Origin: Chloroflexota bacterium
Lineage (GTDB): Bacteria; Chloroflexota; Anaerolineae; Aggregatilineales; J027
Direction: 5' to 3'
Assembly (NCBI GenBank): GCA_013112715.1
Contig: JABFGB010000020.1
Span: 1-64,000, forward strand
DNA: 64,000 bases
Made by a program: the position numbers and the translations under genes. Of the stretch, positions 5,659 through 13,135 are shown piece by piece; positions within the stretch are counted from its first letter, which is position 1, and the number at the start of each line of letters is the position of its first letter. The notes under the pieces were generated by a model that was not told where the DNA came from, ran no database searches, and saw only the letters and a list, made by a program, of their open reading frames with translations.

Positions 5659-6849
5659 TTATTCTGTCTGTTTGTTTACAAACCGAATTTGCAGCGCCCC
5701 TTCGACAAAATTGGCTGGCCCGGTCTCCAATTTCCATAGGGCATAGGGCAGGACGATATTGCGACGATATGGCCCGACACGCACCGTTAGTTCGTCGGCA
5801 CTGCGATACAAATCGAGGTCGGTTTTGTCGGCAAAGGGCAATGGAATGCGGAGGAGGTAATCGCCCGTTTCCAAATCATGCTCAATCGAATGGGTTCCAA
5901 CTTCCGATGTCATTATTTGTGAGGGGTTGGTACTGTCATAAAGCGCATCCGCCAACCGCCGCAGATCATCCAAGCCGCCGATGTCGCTGTTGAACATGGG
6001 GGCTTTTAGCACCTTTAATCCACCGAAGGCTTCCCCAATCAAATCCAGATTTTTGCGCTGTGAATCTTTCCATGCACTAAAATAGGGGTCGGTTACTTCT
6101 GGCGGGATGATGCGGTTGCAAATCACAGAGTCCGTCGGATAGCCATACAAATTGAGATAGGTATAGGTGCGTTGGGTTTCTTTGATGACCATTTTTTCGG
6201 GCGTCATCACCAAACGCATGGTGCTGAGTTCGGGGTTTGCCAATAGGCCCGCCACTTTACTGAGGGTATCAAACAAGCGCTGTACGCTGTCAAGTTCTTC
6301 TTGTTCGGGCAGGTCTGTTCCAAAGAGGGGTTTTGCTAATGGGCGCAGCAAACGGCCTGTCATGCCTTTCATCAAATTCATGGTACGCTCGAACCACCAG
6401 CGTGAGGCATCCGGCAGACTGAGCAGGCGCAGTGTTTCGGCGGTGGGTGCGGCATCTACAATCAACACGTCGAATTCTTGGGTTTCAAAATATTGGTTGA
6501 TCCACAGCAGGTGAGCGCCTTCTTCCAGACCGGGCAGGATGGTTATTTCCTCCGCCACGATGTCATCAAGGCCCTCACGCTGTTTAAATACATTGATGAG
6601 GTAGTTCTGGATGCGCCACCAATATTTATCCATTGAGTAGCGGGCATCCACTTCCTGCCCCCACAGATTGTCATATAGCTGAATCGGCTCCGGCCCGATT
6701 TTCATTTCCAGCGAGTCCCCCAGCGAATGGGCGGTATCGGTACTGATGACGATGGTTTTAAGCCCCATTTCGGCACAGCGTAGAGCAGTTGCCGCTGACA
6801 CACTGGTTTTCCCGACGCCACCTTTGCCCGTATGCACAATAATCCGCAT
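5659..6849 (-). CDS. ArsA/GET3-family ATPase
   Basis: Deviant-Walker P-loop ATPase of 396 residues. GKGGVGKT lies at residues 8-15 and the A-loop type STDTAHSLGDS follows at about 36-46. DAAPTAETLRLLSLP is the switch II region (the D-x-A-P-T-G signature reads DAAPTAE). The C-terminal 80 residues (DYLLRIPLPFADKTDLDLYR) match the small beta-sandwich domain found on bacterial ArsA paralogues. There is no arsenic resistance gene nearby and the arsenite-binding cysteines of true ArsA are absent. A role in membrane-protein handling or an unknown process is more likely than arsenic export. Confidence 0.85.
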   Translation of the reverse strand: MRIIVHTGKGGVGKTSVSAATALRCAEMGLKTIVISTDTAHSLGDSLEMKIGPEPIQLYDNLWGQEVDARYSMDKYWWRIQNYLINVFKQREGLDDIVAEEITILPGLEEGAHLLWINQYFETQEFDVLIVDAAPTAETLRLLSLPDASRWWFERTMNLMKGMTGRLLRPLAKPLFGTDLPEQEELDSVQRLFDTLSKVAGLLANPELSTMRLVMTPEKMVIKETQRTYTYLNLYGYPTDSVICNRIIPPEVTDPYFSAWKDSQRKNLDLIGEAFGGLKVLKAPMFNSDIGGLDDLRRLADALYDSTNPSQIMTSEVGTHSIEHDLETGDYLLRIPLPFADKTDLDLYRSADELTVRVGPYRRNIVLPYALWKLETGPANFVEGALQIRFVNKQTE

Positions 6850-9294: not shown

Positions 9295-9698
9295 TCAATT
9301 GGCGGGCGGAAGACATGGATAAAGTTTTTTCTCTATCAGGAAAAGTCTTTCGGTAATTCGATCTTCATCGTTAAGCTGTAATATTTTGACCGTGACTCTT
9401 CCTTGTGGCGTTAATGGCTCAATGCGCCCGTCTTTCAATACAAAATGATCTGACCAGACATCAAATACAATGAGGCAAACGTTTTGGTTATACGGTCATC
9501 TGAGCCTTTATTACGGTTACAAAAACCACAACTTAAACATAAGTTATCTTCCGTTGTCTCTCCGTCATGTTTTTCGGCAATGATATGGTCAATTTCCGGT
9601 GGATAGGGAGACAAATCTAAATTGATATGGCAATATTCGCAGCAATTGCCTGCCCGTTCCTTTACTAAACGGCGGAGTGCATCGGGTATATTGGTCAT
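9295..9698 (-). pseudogene. HNH endonuclease gene broken by a frameshift
   Basis: The N-terminal 75 or so residues are a clear HNH nuclease: CEYCHINLD, the EIDHIIAEKHDG catalytic segment and CLSCGFCNRNKGSD. That frame stops at 9435. The family C-terminus continues in the -1 frame: WSDHFVLKDGRIEPLTPQGR, then VTVKILQLND, ending at a TGA at 9295. The shift must lie between about 9437 and 9487. One lost base would explain it. It may be a true pseudogene, a sequencing error, or a shortened but active nuclease, since the metal-binding residues are intact. It overlaps the small gene upstream by 4 bases. Confidence 0.8.
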
Positions 9699-9952
9699 TT
9701 GGAGGCTGTCTTTTCGTAGACCTTACCCTTTAACATCCGCATAAAATGTTCCCAACGGAGCGCCTCATCAAATTCGGCGATTTCTTCAGTGGTGAGTGTC
9801 CCGTTCCGATTTCCGTCCCGAAGATAGCGTATTCTTTCGGCAACGGCATCCGAAACTTTGAAGGCGAAAATTTCGTCAGGAGTCGGCAAGGCGGCCAAAA
9901 AATCTAGTATTTCGTTCTCAACGGTAATGACTGGTTGGACAGCATCTGCCAT
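9695..9952 (-). CDS. Small protein paired with HNH endonuclease
   Basis: 85-residue hypothetical protein. Its C-terminal half (RNGTLTTEEIAEFDEALRWE) resembles short proteins often encoded just before HNH nucleases in cyanobacteria and Chloroflexota. The nuclease gene starts in its stop codon (ATGA). The ATG at 9952 is preferred: AAGGAG lies 9 bases before it, against 3 bases for the in-frame ATG two codons earlier. Whether the pair is an addiction module is unknown. Confidence 0.65.
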   Translation of the reverse strand: MADAVQPVITVENEILDFLAALPTPDEIFAFKVSDAVAERIRYLRDGNRNGTLTTEEIAEFDEALRWEHFMRMLKGKVYEKTASK

Positions 9953-10004
9953 GTACATCCACTCCTTCTATCAATTGGACGAATCCTAACATCGGATTTT
10001 TACC

Positions 10005-10556: not shown

Positions 10557-12380
10557 TTACTCCCTTAAGTCACGAAACTGATAAAGCTGCCCATCGGCGA
10601 AACCACGTTTACGATAATATTCCCGCGTGCCGATAGCAGAAATGACAGCGAGTCGTTGATAGCCCCGCTCGTGGGCGATTTCCACCGCGCGTTCAATTAA
10701 CTGTTTGCCTAATCCGACATGCTGACTTTTGCCAGCCAACGCCTCACCGATTTCAATGGATTGTCCGTAAACATGCACTTCCCGAATCATGGCGGCATTT
10801 TCTAATTCGGGGGTAATCGGCGGTTCGGTAGGCAGGGACAGGCGCAAAAATCCGGCAATCTGACGTTCAGGGGTGATGTATTGCAAGAACACCTCATCAC
10901 TACAATTCGACGTATACCAGACCTCATCCAAATACAAGGTATCAGGGGCAACGTTCCGATGGCGGATTTCACGACTGCGGATGTCGCCTGTATAACTCCC
11001 ATTTTGGGCCAATTCCTGCTGCACCAGTTCACGGAAATTGGTCATTTTGTTGCCGACCACAATATCCGTGCCGGGAATGTCGCGGATAACACGGGTCAGG
11101 CGGCAGTAATCAGGGGTGAGTTGGAAGCAGGCTGTCAGCACGCCTAATAATTCTTCGTGGGTATAGGGTCGCCATTCGCCACGCTGATAGTAGTCCATCA
11201 ATTCGGCGCTTTCGATCAAGGAACAGGGATACACCTTGAGTTCATCAGGGCGGAAATCGGGGTCGTTAAACATCCGCGCATAATCTTCAGTGTCGGCTTC
11301 TGGTGACGACCCATAGAGATTTGGCATCCAATGGGCATGGATCTTAAATCCGGCTTGGCGTAATAGTTTCACAGCGCGGCGTGTGGCGGCGACTTCATGC
11401 CCCCGTTTATTCAGGCGCAGCACTTCGTCATTGAGGCTCTGAAAACCGATTTGGACTTTGGTACAGCCCAATCGTCGGATTCGGAGCACTTCTTCTTCAC
11501 TGATATGGTCGGGGCGGGTTTCAACCACCAAGCCGACACAGCGACATTCGGCATTTTCATTTTCCCGATGCGCCGCCTCTAATTCTTCCCATGTCGCAAA
11601 TTCAGTGATGGAGGTACGCTCCGCCAAACCTAAGCCAATTGAAGCGGCCTGTTCCCTCGAACGCAGCATTTCATCCCAGTAGATGTTCTGGACGACTTGG
11701 TTATAGGTCTGGTCATGTCCCGGTGCGTTGATTTCGGTAATATTACGGGCGGGGTGCAGTTGGGAATGTTCTAACAGCAGGCTTTCGACTTCCGCTGTGT
11801 GGTCTACCCCATTACCAAAATCATGCAGCGCATCAAAAATGCGTTTGATAAACCAGATTTGATAGGTTTCAGGATAAAATGACCATGTGCCGCCCAAAAT
11901 AATCATTTCGATTTTGTCGGTGGGGTGTCCGGTATTATAGAGGGCCAGCAAACGGCGATAGGTTTGCAGATAGGGGTCAAAGGCGTTGGCTTCGGCCCGC
12001 TGCGCCCCCGGCTCATCCGAAAGGTAACTCTTGGGCATCCGAATATCGTTGGGGCAAAAAATACACGTCCCCGGGCAGGGAAATGGCTTGGTCAAAACGG
12101 TGACAGGTGTCACCCCCGAACTGGTTCGCACGGGTTTAAGGCGCAGGCGCTCGACGATGGTTTTGTCGTAGGTAGGTAGCTCACCTGTATCGGTAAAATA
12201 GCGATAAGCCCGAATCAATTCATCCCGACGAAAAAGGCCAGAGCCGTCTTTGGGGTGTGATTTTAGAATGCGCTCCAACTGTTTCTGGGCCAGTTCAGGG
12301 GTATCGAGCACCTGCCGCAAAATCGCTAACAGGGATTCTCGGTAAAGTTCAAGGTCATCAGGGGCAGTTTTGTAAGTCAT
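10557..12380 (-). CDS. Elp3-family tRNA uridine(34) acetyltransferase-like radical SAM enzyme
   Basis: 607-residue homologue of Elp3, the catalytic subunit of eukaryotic Elongator, which makes cm5U at wobble position U34 of tRNA. The radical SAM cluster motif CPGTCIFC has cysteines at residues 102, 106 and 109. The TRP-and-HTxxE-type core EVVETRPDHISEEE reads VVETRPDHISEEEVLR. The C-terminal 100 residues are a GNAT acetyltransferase domain (HVGLGKQLIERAVEIAHERG, REYYRKRGF). Bacterial Elp3 acts without the other Elongator subunits. The gene is divergent, by 32 bases, from a Trm9-like methyltransferase, which would act on the Elp3 product in the eukaryotic pathway. Confidence 0.92.
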   Translation of the reverse strand: MTYKTAPDDLELYRESLLAILRQVLDTPELAQKQLERILKSHPKDGSGLFRRDELIRAYRYFTDTGELPTYDKTIVERLRLKPVRTSSGVTPVTVLTKPFPCPGTCIFCPNDIRMPKSYLSDEPGAQRAEANAFDPYLQTYRRLLALYNTGHPTDKIEMIILGGTWSFYPETYQIWFIKRIFDALHDFGNGVDHTAEVESLLLEHSQLHPARNITEINAPGHDQTYNQVVQNIYWDEMLRSREQAASIGLGLAERTSITEFATWEELEAAHRENENAECRCVGLVVETRPDHISEEEVLRIRRLGCTKVQIGFQSLNDEVLRLNKRGHEVAATRRAVKLLRQAGFKIHAHWMPNLYGSSPEADTEDYARMFNDPDFRPDELKVYPCSLIESAELMDYYQRGEWRPYTHEELLGVLTACFQLTPDYCRLTRVIRDIPGTDIVVGNKMTNFRELVQQELAQNGSYTGDIRSREIRHRNVAPDTLYLDEVWYTSNCSDEVFLQYITPERQIAGFLRLSLPTEPPITPELENAAMIREVHVYGQSIEIGEALAGKSQHVGLGKQLIERAVEIAHERGYQRLAVISAIGTREYYRKRGFADGQLYQFRDLRE

Positions 12381-12412
12381 GATGCACGTTCAACCCGATT
12401 GGAATTCTTTGA

Positions 12413-13135
12413 ATGGATGTTAATCTAATCCGACGCCTAAATCAACTGAATAAAGATTTTTATGCCCAAACTGCCGAGTCGTTTAGTCAATCACGTGACC
12501 ATGCGTGGGAAGGCTGGCTGAAGTTATTACCCTATCTCAAACCACCCCTTTCAGTTTTGGATGTCGGGTGTGGCAACGGGCGCTTTGGGATATTTTTACA
12601 TGAACAATTCGGGGATGGTGTTGCATATCACGGTCTCGATAATGCTCCGGCGCTTTTGGATTTCGCACGACAGGCCTTTGATGAACGTGGCCTATGCTTC
12701 ACATTAGAAAATCGGGACATCGTTGAAAATCCGCCTGATATGGGAGAGTATGATTGGGTCGTGGCGTTTGGCGTGCTGCATCACATCCCCGGTTATAAAA
12801 ATCGGCATGAATTTGTGCGATGTTTGGGTCAGCGTCTCAAAAAAGATGGCTATTTGGTATTCACGAGTTGGCGATTTTATGAGCAGCCCCGTTTCCGTGA
12901 ACGGATTGCGGTTTGGCCTGACGATTTTCAAGTGGAGTCGCACGACTATTTATTGGATTGGCGGCGGGATAGGGGTGGTGATGAAGAGCCTGCCCTGCGC
13001 TACTGCCATTACATTGACGACGCTGAACATCAATCCCTGATTGCTGCCACCGGATTGACCGAAATCACCGCTTATCGGGCGGATGGTCGCAGTGGGGATT
13101 TAAATTGCTACAGCGTGTTGCAGCGCATTACTTAA
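12413..13135 (+). CDS. Trm9/ALKBH8-like class I methyltransferase
   Basis: 240-residue SAM-dependent methyltransferase. Motif I is VLDVGCGNGRFG (residues 48-59), post-I acidic residue in GLDNAP, and motif IV is VAFGVLHHIP. Three features look specifically like eukaryotic Trm9: FYAQTAESFSQSR...AW near the N-terminus (Trm9 has an I-A-x-x-F-S-x-T-R...W pattern), GCGNG, and a C-terminal RYCHYIDDAEHQSLIAATGL. Trm9 methylates cm5U34 to mcm5U34. The gene faces elp3 across 32 bases. Function by homology and context only; a general class I methyltransferase with another substrate is the alternative. Confidence 0.75.
   Translation: MDVNLIRRLNQLNKDFYAQTAESFSQSRDHAWEGWLKLLPYLKPPLSVLDVGCGNGRFGIFLHEQFGDGVAYHGLDNAPALLDFARQAFDERGLCFTLENRDIVENPPDMGEYDWVVAFGVLHHIPGYKNRHEFVRCLGQRLKKDGYLVFTSWRFYEQPRFRERIAVWPDDFQVESHDYLLDWRRDRGGDEEPALRYCHYIDDAEHQSLIAATGLTEITAYRADGRSGDLNCYSVLQRIT

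Follow-up and report, generated by a model that had tools for sequence, protein, structure and literature searches.

The window, by which we mean the whole 64,000-nucleotide stretch of Chloroflexota DNA analysed here, contains a divergent gene pair that probably encodes the first two steps of a wobble-uridine pathway of the eukaryotic and archaeal style in a bacterium. The succession of Elp3 and Trm9 is the known eukaryotic route to mcm5U34. The pair comprises elp3 (10557..12380, minus strand), whose 607-aa product is a radical SAM/GNAT enzyme predicted to carboxymethylate U34 of tRNA, and a gene for a 240-aa Trm9-like class I SAM methyltransferase (12413..13135, plus strand), proposed from its PDB match, linkage and motifs to methylate the carboxyl group of cm5U34.

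The gene pair in the window

Both open reading frames coincide exactly with those described in the first-pass annotation; they stand back to back, and 32 bases (12381..12412) separate the divergent start codons. Spacers of about 7–160 bases are typical of most closely linked relatives. A search of positions 12250–12560 for a sigma-70-like promoter found none, which is a weak indication only in Chloroflexota. The gene pair and its motifs are confirmed as real, and they are more than a product of chance, since the N-terminal motif of the methyltransferase distinguishes its family from other methyltransferases and dozens of genomes show the divergent arrangement (see below). Elsewhere in the window, a small HNH endonuclease gene (9435–9698, minus strand) overlaps with its start the end of a small open reading frame of no recognised family (9695–9958), and positions 5659–6849 (minus strand) encode an ArsA-type ATPase whose C-terminal domain is HSP20-like.

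Features of the window Elp3

The first-pass annotation had proposed a full-length Elp3, and this is borne out by Pfam matches to the radical SAM, radical SAM C-terminal and GNAT domains, by the TIGR01211 score (478 bits, above the cut-off of 350) and by matches to Elp3 structures in the PDB. Alignment to the Elp3 of Dehalococcoides mccartyi (DmcElp3, PDB code 5l7j) shows that the two proteins belong to the same enzyme family and have catalytic residues in common: the three [4Fe-4S] cluster cysteines (CxxxCxxC) are kept, and the residues K77, K193, E386 and Y441 of the acetyl-CoA site (PMC6367351) correspond to K156, K346, E534 and Y588 of the window protein, all conserved. K382 and Y384 align, in an alignment read by eye, to K302 and Y304 of the M. 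infernus protein, named in PMC13315578.

Unlike DmcElp3, which has zinc cysteines and no insert, the window Elp3 carries T, D and S in place of these cysteines, and an insert of about 75 aa (residues ~188–265) extends its radical SAM domain (79 residues versus 5 in D. mccartyi). The same subtype was seen at three other loci (L059, L066 and L106), whereas the examined Elp3s of Dehalococcoidia, of family f3 and of other Anaerolineae keep the zinc cysteines and lack the insert. The zinc site is also absent from eukaryotic Elp3 (PMC6367351), so it is a mark of subtype and is unnecessary for membership of the Elp3 family. Two other variants were noted among the relatives: the two examined Elp3s of family f3 (L035 and L039) carry Q where the acetyl-CoA site of DmcElp3 has E386, and in one genome (G021:C24:367908-369339) elp3 is broken over several frames beside an intact methyltransferase gene, through assembly error or mutation.

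Motifs of the methyltransferase

The residues on which the Trm9-like character had been proposed from the sequence alone are present and near-invariant: F24-S-Q-S-R28...W32 (the motif F-S-Q-S-R-D-H-A-W, residues 24–32, 12482..12508), G52-C-G-N-G, and the C-terminal W183...R196-Y-C-H199...N231. Among 20 sequences from the window's order, these residues are invariant (F24, R28 and W32 in 20/20), except that a few sequences differ at G52 and C198. All 48 family members have the N-terminal motif, and it is absent from all 41 further class I methyltransferases that were taken from related genomes and serve as the paralogue set throughout; the Trm9-type C-terminal pattern occurs in 46/48 family members and 1/41 paralogues. 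Since the family and Trm9 themselves served to define both motifs, it is the paralogue counts that are informative.

In yeast Trm9, the mutations R29A, H115A, R241A, Y243A and N271A abolish tRNA affinity and activity (PMC5372719). These residues were located by spacing on the sequence of Yarrowia lipolytica Trm9 (TRYKPW, IHHF, YRYYH and KDNWW) and not on the yeast sequence itself. By alignment, the window methyltransferase keeps four of the five: R28 corresponds to R29, H123 of the pair H123-H124 (12779..12784) to H115, with H124 aligned to the residue following it, R196 of the lid region R196-Y197-C198-H199 (12998..13009) to R241, and N231 (13103..13105) to N271, while Y243 is replaced by C198. 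Across the aligned Anaerolineae family, R28, R196 and H124 are found in 48/48 sequences and H123 in 46/48; at the position of Y243, C and V predominate, with A in some sequences, and the N271 equivalent, present in 20/20 sequences of the window's order, is G, A or S in most of the remaining class. The loss of Y243 and the restriction of N271 mainly to the window's order are counted against the Trm9 reading.

Similarity to Trm9 in sequence and structure searches

A single-sequence search of the PDB with the methyltransferase (METHYLTRANSFERASE) returned Y. lipolytica Trm9 (5cm2_Z) as the best match (8e-10, residues 43–223), the next match being at 2e-5. In a profile search Trm9 again came first (1e-11, 47.6 bits), with an alignment (residues 26–214) that runs through the C-terminal lid region; the second match, covering the Rossmann core only, scored 46.1 bits, so that the lead of Trm9 is 1.5 bits. 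The reverse search, with Trm9 as the query, found the window methyltransferase as the best match in its own genome (2.8e-9 versus 3.1e-4 for the next); among 45 carriers having matches, the linked-type enzyme was best in 34 and another methyltransferase in 11. The narrow lead in the profile search and the 11 carriers with another best match count against the Trm9 reading. The methyltransferase is nevertheless closer to Trm9 than to any other protein of solved structure, lid motif included, and within its own genome this holds in the reverse direction too.

An archaeal Trm9-like protein, from Natronorubrum, whose own best PDB match is Trm9 (1.3e-16), is the best outgroup of the family profile: it scored 66 bits, while the highest score among the 41 paralogues was 49; Y. 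lipolytica Trm9 scored 47 bits, slightly below two paralogues. With a profile of the Dehalococcoidia partners described below, the Natronorubrum protein (92 bits) and Y. lipolytica Trm9 (77 bits) ranked first and second, the paralogue maximum being 67. On a plasmid of Natronorubrum bangense (L191:3518-4228), the gene of a Trm9-like methyltransferase lies about 1.8 kb from a gene whose annotation reads radical SAM protein.

Pfam and Foldseek both support the class I SAM methyltransferase fold, and the AlphaFold 2 model has a pLDDT of 91. Pfam and NCBIfam gave generic methyltransferase matches only, those of NCBIfam far below the equivalog cut-offs. A Foldseek search with the model placed 5cm2_Z at rank 12, with the highest target-normalised TM score among the 50 matches listed; 5cm2_Z was absent among the 50 VIA matches listed. 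Many class I methyltransferases fit the model about equally well, and therefore fold comparison was set aside as evidence for Trm9 identity.

In general plan, the protein resembles the Trm9–Trm112 complex and the corresponding domain of ALKBH8 in its class I fold, the N-terminal [TS]R...W, the HH pair, the lid W...R[YF].H and the equivalents of R29, H115 and R241, plus N271 in the window's order, and in its proposed place as the step after Elp3; it differs in being bacterial, in having Cys at the Y243 position and in being encoded head to head with elp3.

The same data bear on the possibility that the enzyme acts on the Elp3 product, or on another state of U34, to give a different nucleoside, such as a CmoM-like ester on cmo5U or a derivative of cm5U. 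E. coli CmoM is a class I methyltransferase that likewise converts a carboxyl group at U34 into its methyl ester; its substrate is cmo5U. The two enzymes have a fold in common (CmoM structure 8joz, rank 50, Z 18.3 in the fold comparison), and the variation of the subfamilies at the Y243 and N271 positions would suit such a shift in substrate. However, Trm9 heads the PDB sequence matches, the first 60 of which do not name CmoM, and the strict linkage with Elp3, the known product of which is cm5U, favours cm5U as the substrate. We regard a different nucleoside as unlikely; a function like that of Trm9 is likely.

Phylogenetic placement

In a tree of 64 sequences, the family was grouped with support of 98/96 and the two Trm9 proteins with 98/91; the union of family and Trm9 appeared in 301 of 1000 bootstraps, and a tree holding them together was not rejected by the AU test (p 0.395). 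When the Dehalococcoidia partners were added, they joined the Trm9 proteins at 89/79, and the family, the Dehalococcoidia partners and Trm9 fell on one side of a branch supported at 70/84 with three long-branch paralogues left out. These paralogues were dropped after the tree had been seen, and therefore 70/84 is weak evidence; with them included, the clade appeared in 1 of 1000 bootstraps, and was not rejected by the AU test (p 0.133). The first-pass annotation had named a grouping with unrelated small-molecule methyltransferases as an outcome that would speak against its reading; no grouping with unrelated methyltransferases was seen, but the support for the Trm9 clade is moderate at best. 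The trees are compatible with common descent with Trm9 and fall short of proof.

Linkage and co-occurrence in Chloroflexota

Conservation of the pairing was assessed in 61 genomes of the window's order, in 400 evenly sampled Chloroflexota genomes and in a scan of GTDB contigs. The methyltransferase was found in 49 of the 61 genomes of the order and adjoins elp3 in 24 of the 49, always divergently, as counted from coordinates; in about half of the carriers, the genes are apart or on different contigs. In the rest of the class, 35 of the 39 sampled carriers have the two genes divergent and at most 2.3 kb apart, the exceptions to close divergent pairing being G156, G204, G236 and G431. Of 147 relatives in the contig scan, the best 80 were listed, each with a Chloroflexota title; both genes lie within 5 kb at 35 of these 80 loci, 34 of them divergent. 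At four Anaerolineae loci of family f9 (L145:717-1466, minus strand; L150:2237-2986, plus strand; also L141 and L156), a gene for CysH (phosphoadenylyl-sulfate reductase; identity family-tested in two of the four) occupies a gap of about 1 kb between elp3 and the methyltransferase gene, on the strand of elp3 and touching it or within about 50 bases of it.

In the sample of 400 genomes, the methyltransferase was detected in 41, all of the window's class and all with Elp3; within the class sample, both proteins are found in 41 genomes, Elp3 alone in one, the methyltransferase alone in none and neither of them in 13 (Fisher p about 1e-11, to be taken as a guide only, because related genomes are not independent). 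Profile scans of the family f3 genomes of the order detected Elp3 and no methyltransferase of either type, linked or otherwise, which weighs against the proposed pairing of functions.

Outside the class, a scan with the family profile found a divergent methyltransferase gene at 24 of 24 elp3 loci in the Elp3-bearing genomes of the phylum, and G254 provides a 25th divergent pair from coordinates, bringing the total to 25 of 26 Elp3 genomes; no methyltransferase partner was found in G427, which has a partial Elp3. The Elp3 of G067 is almost the same as the D. mccartyi protein of known crystal structure (984 bits against 5l7j) and likewise lies beside a divergent Trm9-like gene; the group therefore includes Dehalococcoides-type genomes, and the whole of it is called Dehalococcoidia here. 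The partner at locus L164 has 5cm2_Z as its best PDB match (7.5e-15, residues 17–196), and for that at L177 it is the second match. All five Trm9 residues are invariant in these partners by alignment (R20, H112, R169, Y171 and N209), where the equivalence of R20 to R29 presupposes an ungapped N-terminal alignment. Taken over the order, the rest of the class and the other Chloroflexota, the linkage with elp3, which the first-pass annotation had wanted checked across Chloroflexota, is strongly conserved.

This distribution also addresses the possibility that the methyltransferase has an unrelated target (another RNA site, a protein or a small molecule) and that the divergent arrangement reflects shared regulation and not one pathway. 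Class I methyltransferases form a very diverse group in which neither fold nor core sequence defines the substrate, and the separation of the genes in roughly every second carrier of the window's order fits such independence. Against it, every genome of the class sample with the methyltransferase also has Elp3, the identical divergent pairing is found in two classes with diverged sequences, and the Trm9 C-terminal pattern is present in 46/48 family members as against 1/41 paralogues. An unrelated target is about as unlikely as a different nucleoside.

Other enzymes of wobble-uridine modification

The MnmE–MnmG (GidA) pathway of most bacteria, which leads to cmnm5U and mnm5U, modifies the same position 34 and has the same decoding role, but its enzymes are unrelated to Elp3 and the methyltransferase. 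MnmG was not found above the cut-off in any of the 61 genomes of the order, and MnmE in none of 31 genomes tested; in the class sample, MnmG was found in 0 of 42 Elp3 genomes and in 3 of 13 Elp3-free genomes, families f10, f13 and f18 having neither Elp3 nor MnmG above the threshold. The lack of MnmG in the Elp3 genomes implies that they need another U34 system. MnmA is present in all nine genomes tested, including that of the window, whereas C2 thiolation in archaea is assigned to Tuc1-type enzymes.

Known Trm9 depends on Trm112. The first-pass annotation had suggested a Trm112-like partner encoded elsewhere, but a search of the window's own genome (96% complete) with PF03966 found no match, so the methyltransferase is not part of the known Trm9–Trm112 heterodimer. 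In three other genomes (G043:C34, G047:C713 and G059:C44), Trm112-domain and methyltransferase matches fall at one location and in open frames of equal length, which suggests Trm112–methyltransferase fusions. Because the Trm112 feature is missing and the support for monophyly is moderate at best, membership of the methyltransferase in the Trm9 family is not proven.

Proposed pathway

Following the known chemistry of its family, Elp3 would carboxymethylate U34 of certain tRNAs with acetyl-CoA and SAM to give cm5U34. The product of the divergent gene would then esterify the cm5U34 carboxylate with SAM, as Trm9 does and with no recognisable Trm112, to give mcm5U34, and MnmA, encoded elsewhere, would probably thiolate some of the tRNAs (those for Lys, Glu and Gln) to mcm5s2U34. 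From the conserved and co-occurring gene pair of Elp3 and Trm9 type, the lack of MnmE and MnmG and the presence of MnmA, we infer substrate, product and thiolation, with mcm5U34 and some mcm5s2U34 as the expected nucleosides. Of the bacterial mcm5U34 pathway proposed in the first-pass annotation, the linkage and the Trm9 match have stood, while the Trm112 partner has not been found, and the mcm5U product is a prediction from genome data. With somewhat less assurance than for the first two steps, we consider it fairly probable that the Elp3-bearing Chloroflexota make mcm5U and mcm5s2U34 by means of Elp3, a Trm112-free Trm9-like enzyme and MnmA, a hybrid route that would replace the missing MnmE–MnmG route. 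That the pair is nonfunctional, or that the tRNA carries only cm5U or ncm5U and the methyltransferase is a relic, is very improbable: the in vitro activity of DmcElp3 is very weak (PMC7663514), but open frames and invariant motifs persist across dozens of genomes, and Elp3 genomes of the class sample need a U34 system in place of MnmG.

Significance

The arrangement recalls the archaeal homologues of Elp3 and Trm9 (Sulfolobus, Haloferax and Natronorubrum), in which a single-subunit Elp3 has a Trm9-like partner, as in the window; the two genes are clustered in Sulfolobus solfataricus, and an archaeal counterpart of the eukaryotic route has been proposed (PMC2584109). For bacteria, a 2017 review described the Trm112-dependent methyltransferases as having no bacterial homologues (PMC5372719), a 2020 review noted that Elp3 occurs in Dehalococcoides but that xcm5U34 derivatives had no direct evidence there (PMC7663514), and a 2020 catalogue assigned mcm5U to Archaea and Eukarya and not to Bacteria (PMC7694415). 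No description of a bacterial elp3–trm9-like pair was found in the literature searched, the coverage of which is incomplete, and priority is not established. The conservation of the pair in two Chloroflexota classes names a likely U34 product for these bacteria. It also offers a small two-gene system, possibly Trm112-free, alongside the D. mccartyi Elp3, for which a crystal structure exists, and it bears on the origin of the mcm5U route, which may be older than the archaea and eukaryotes or may have been transferred from them.
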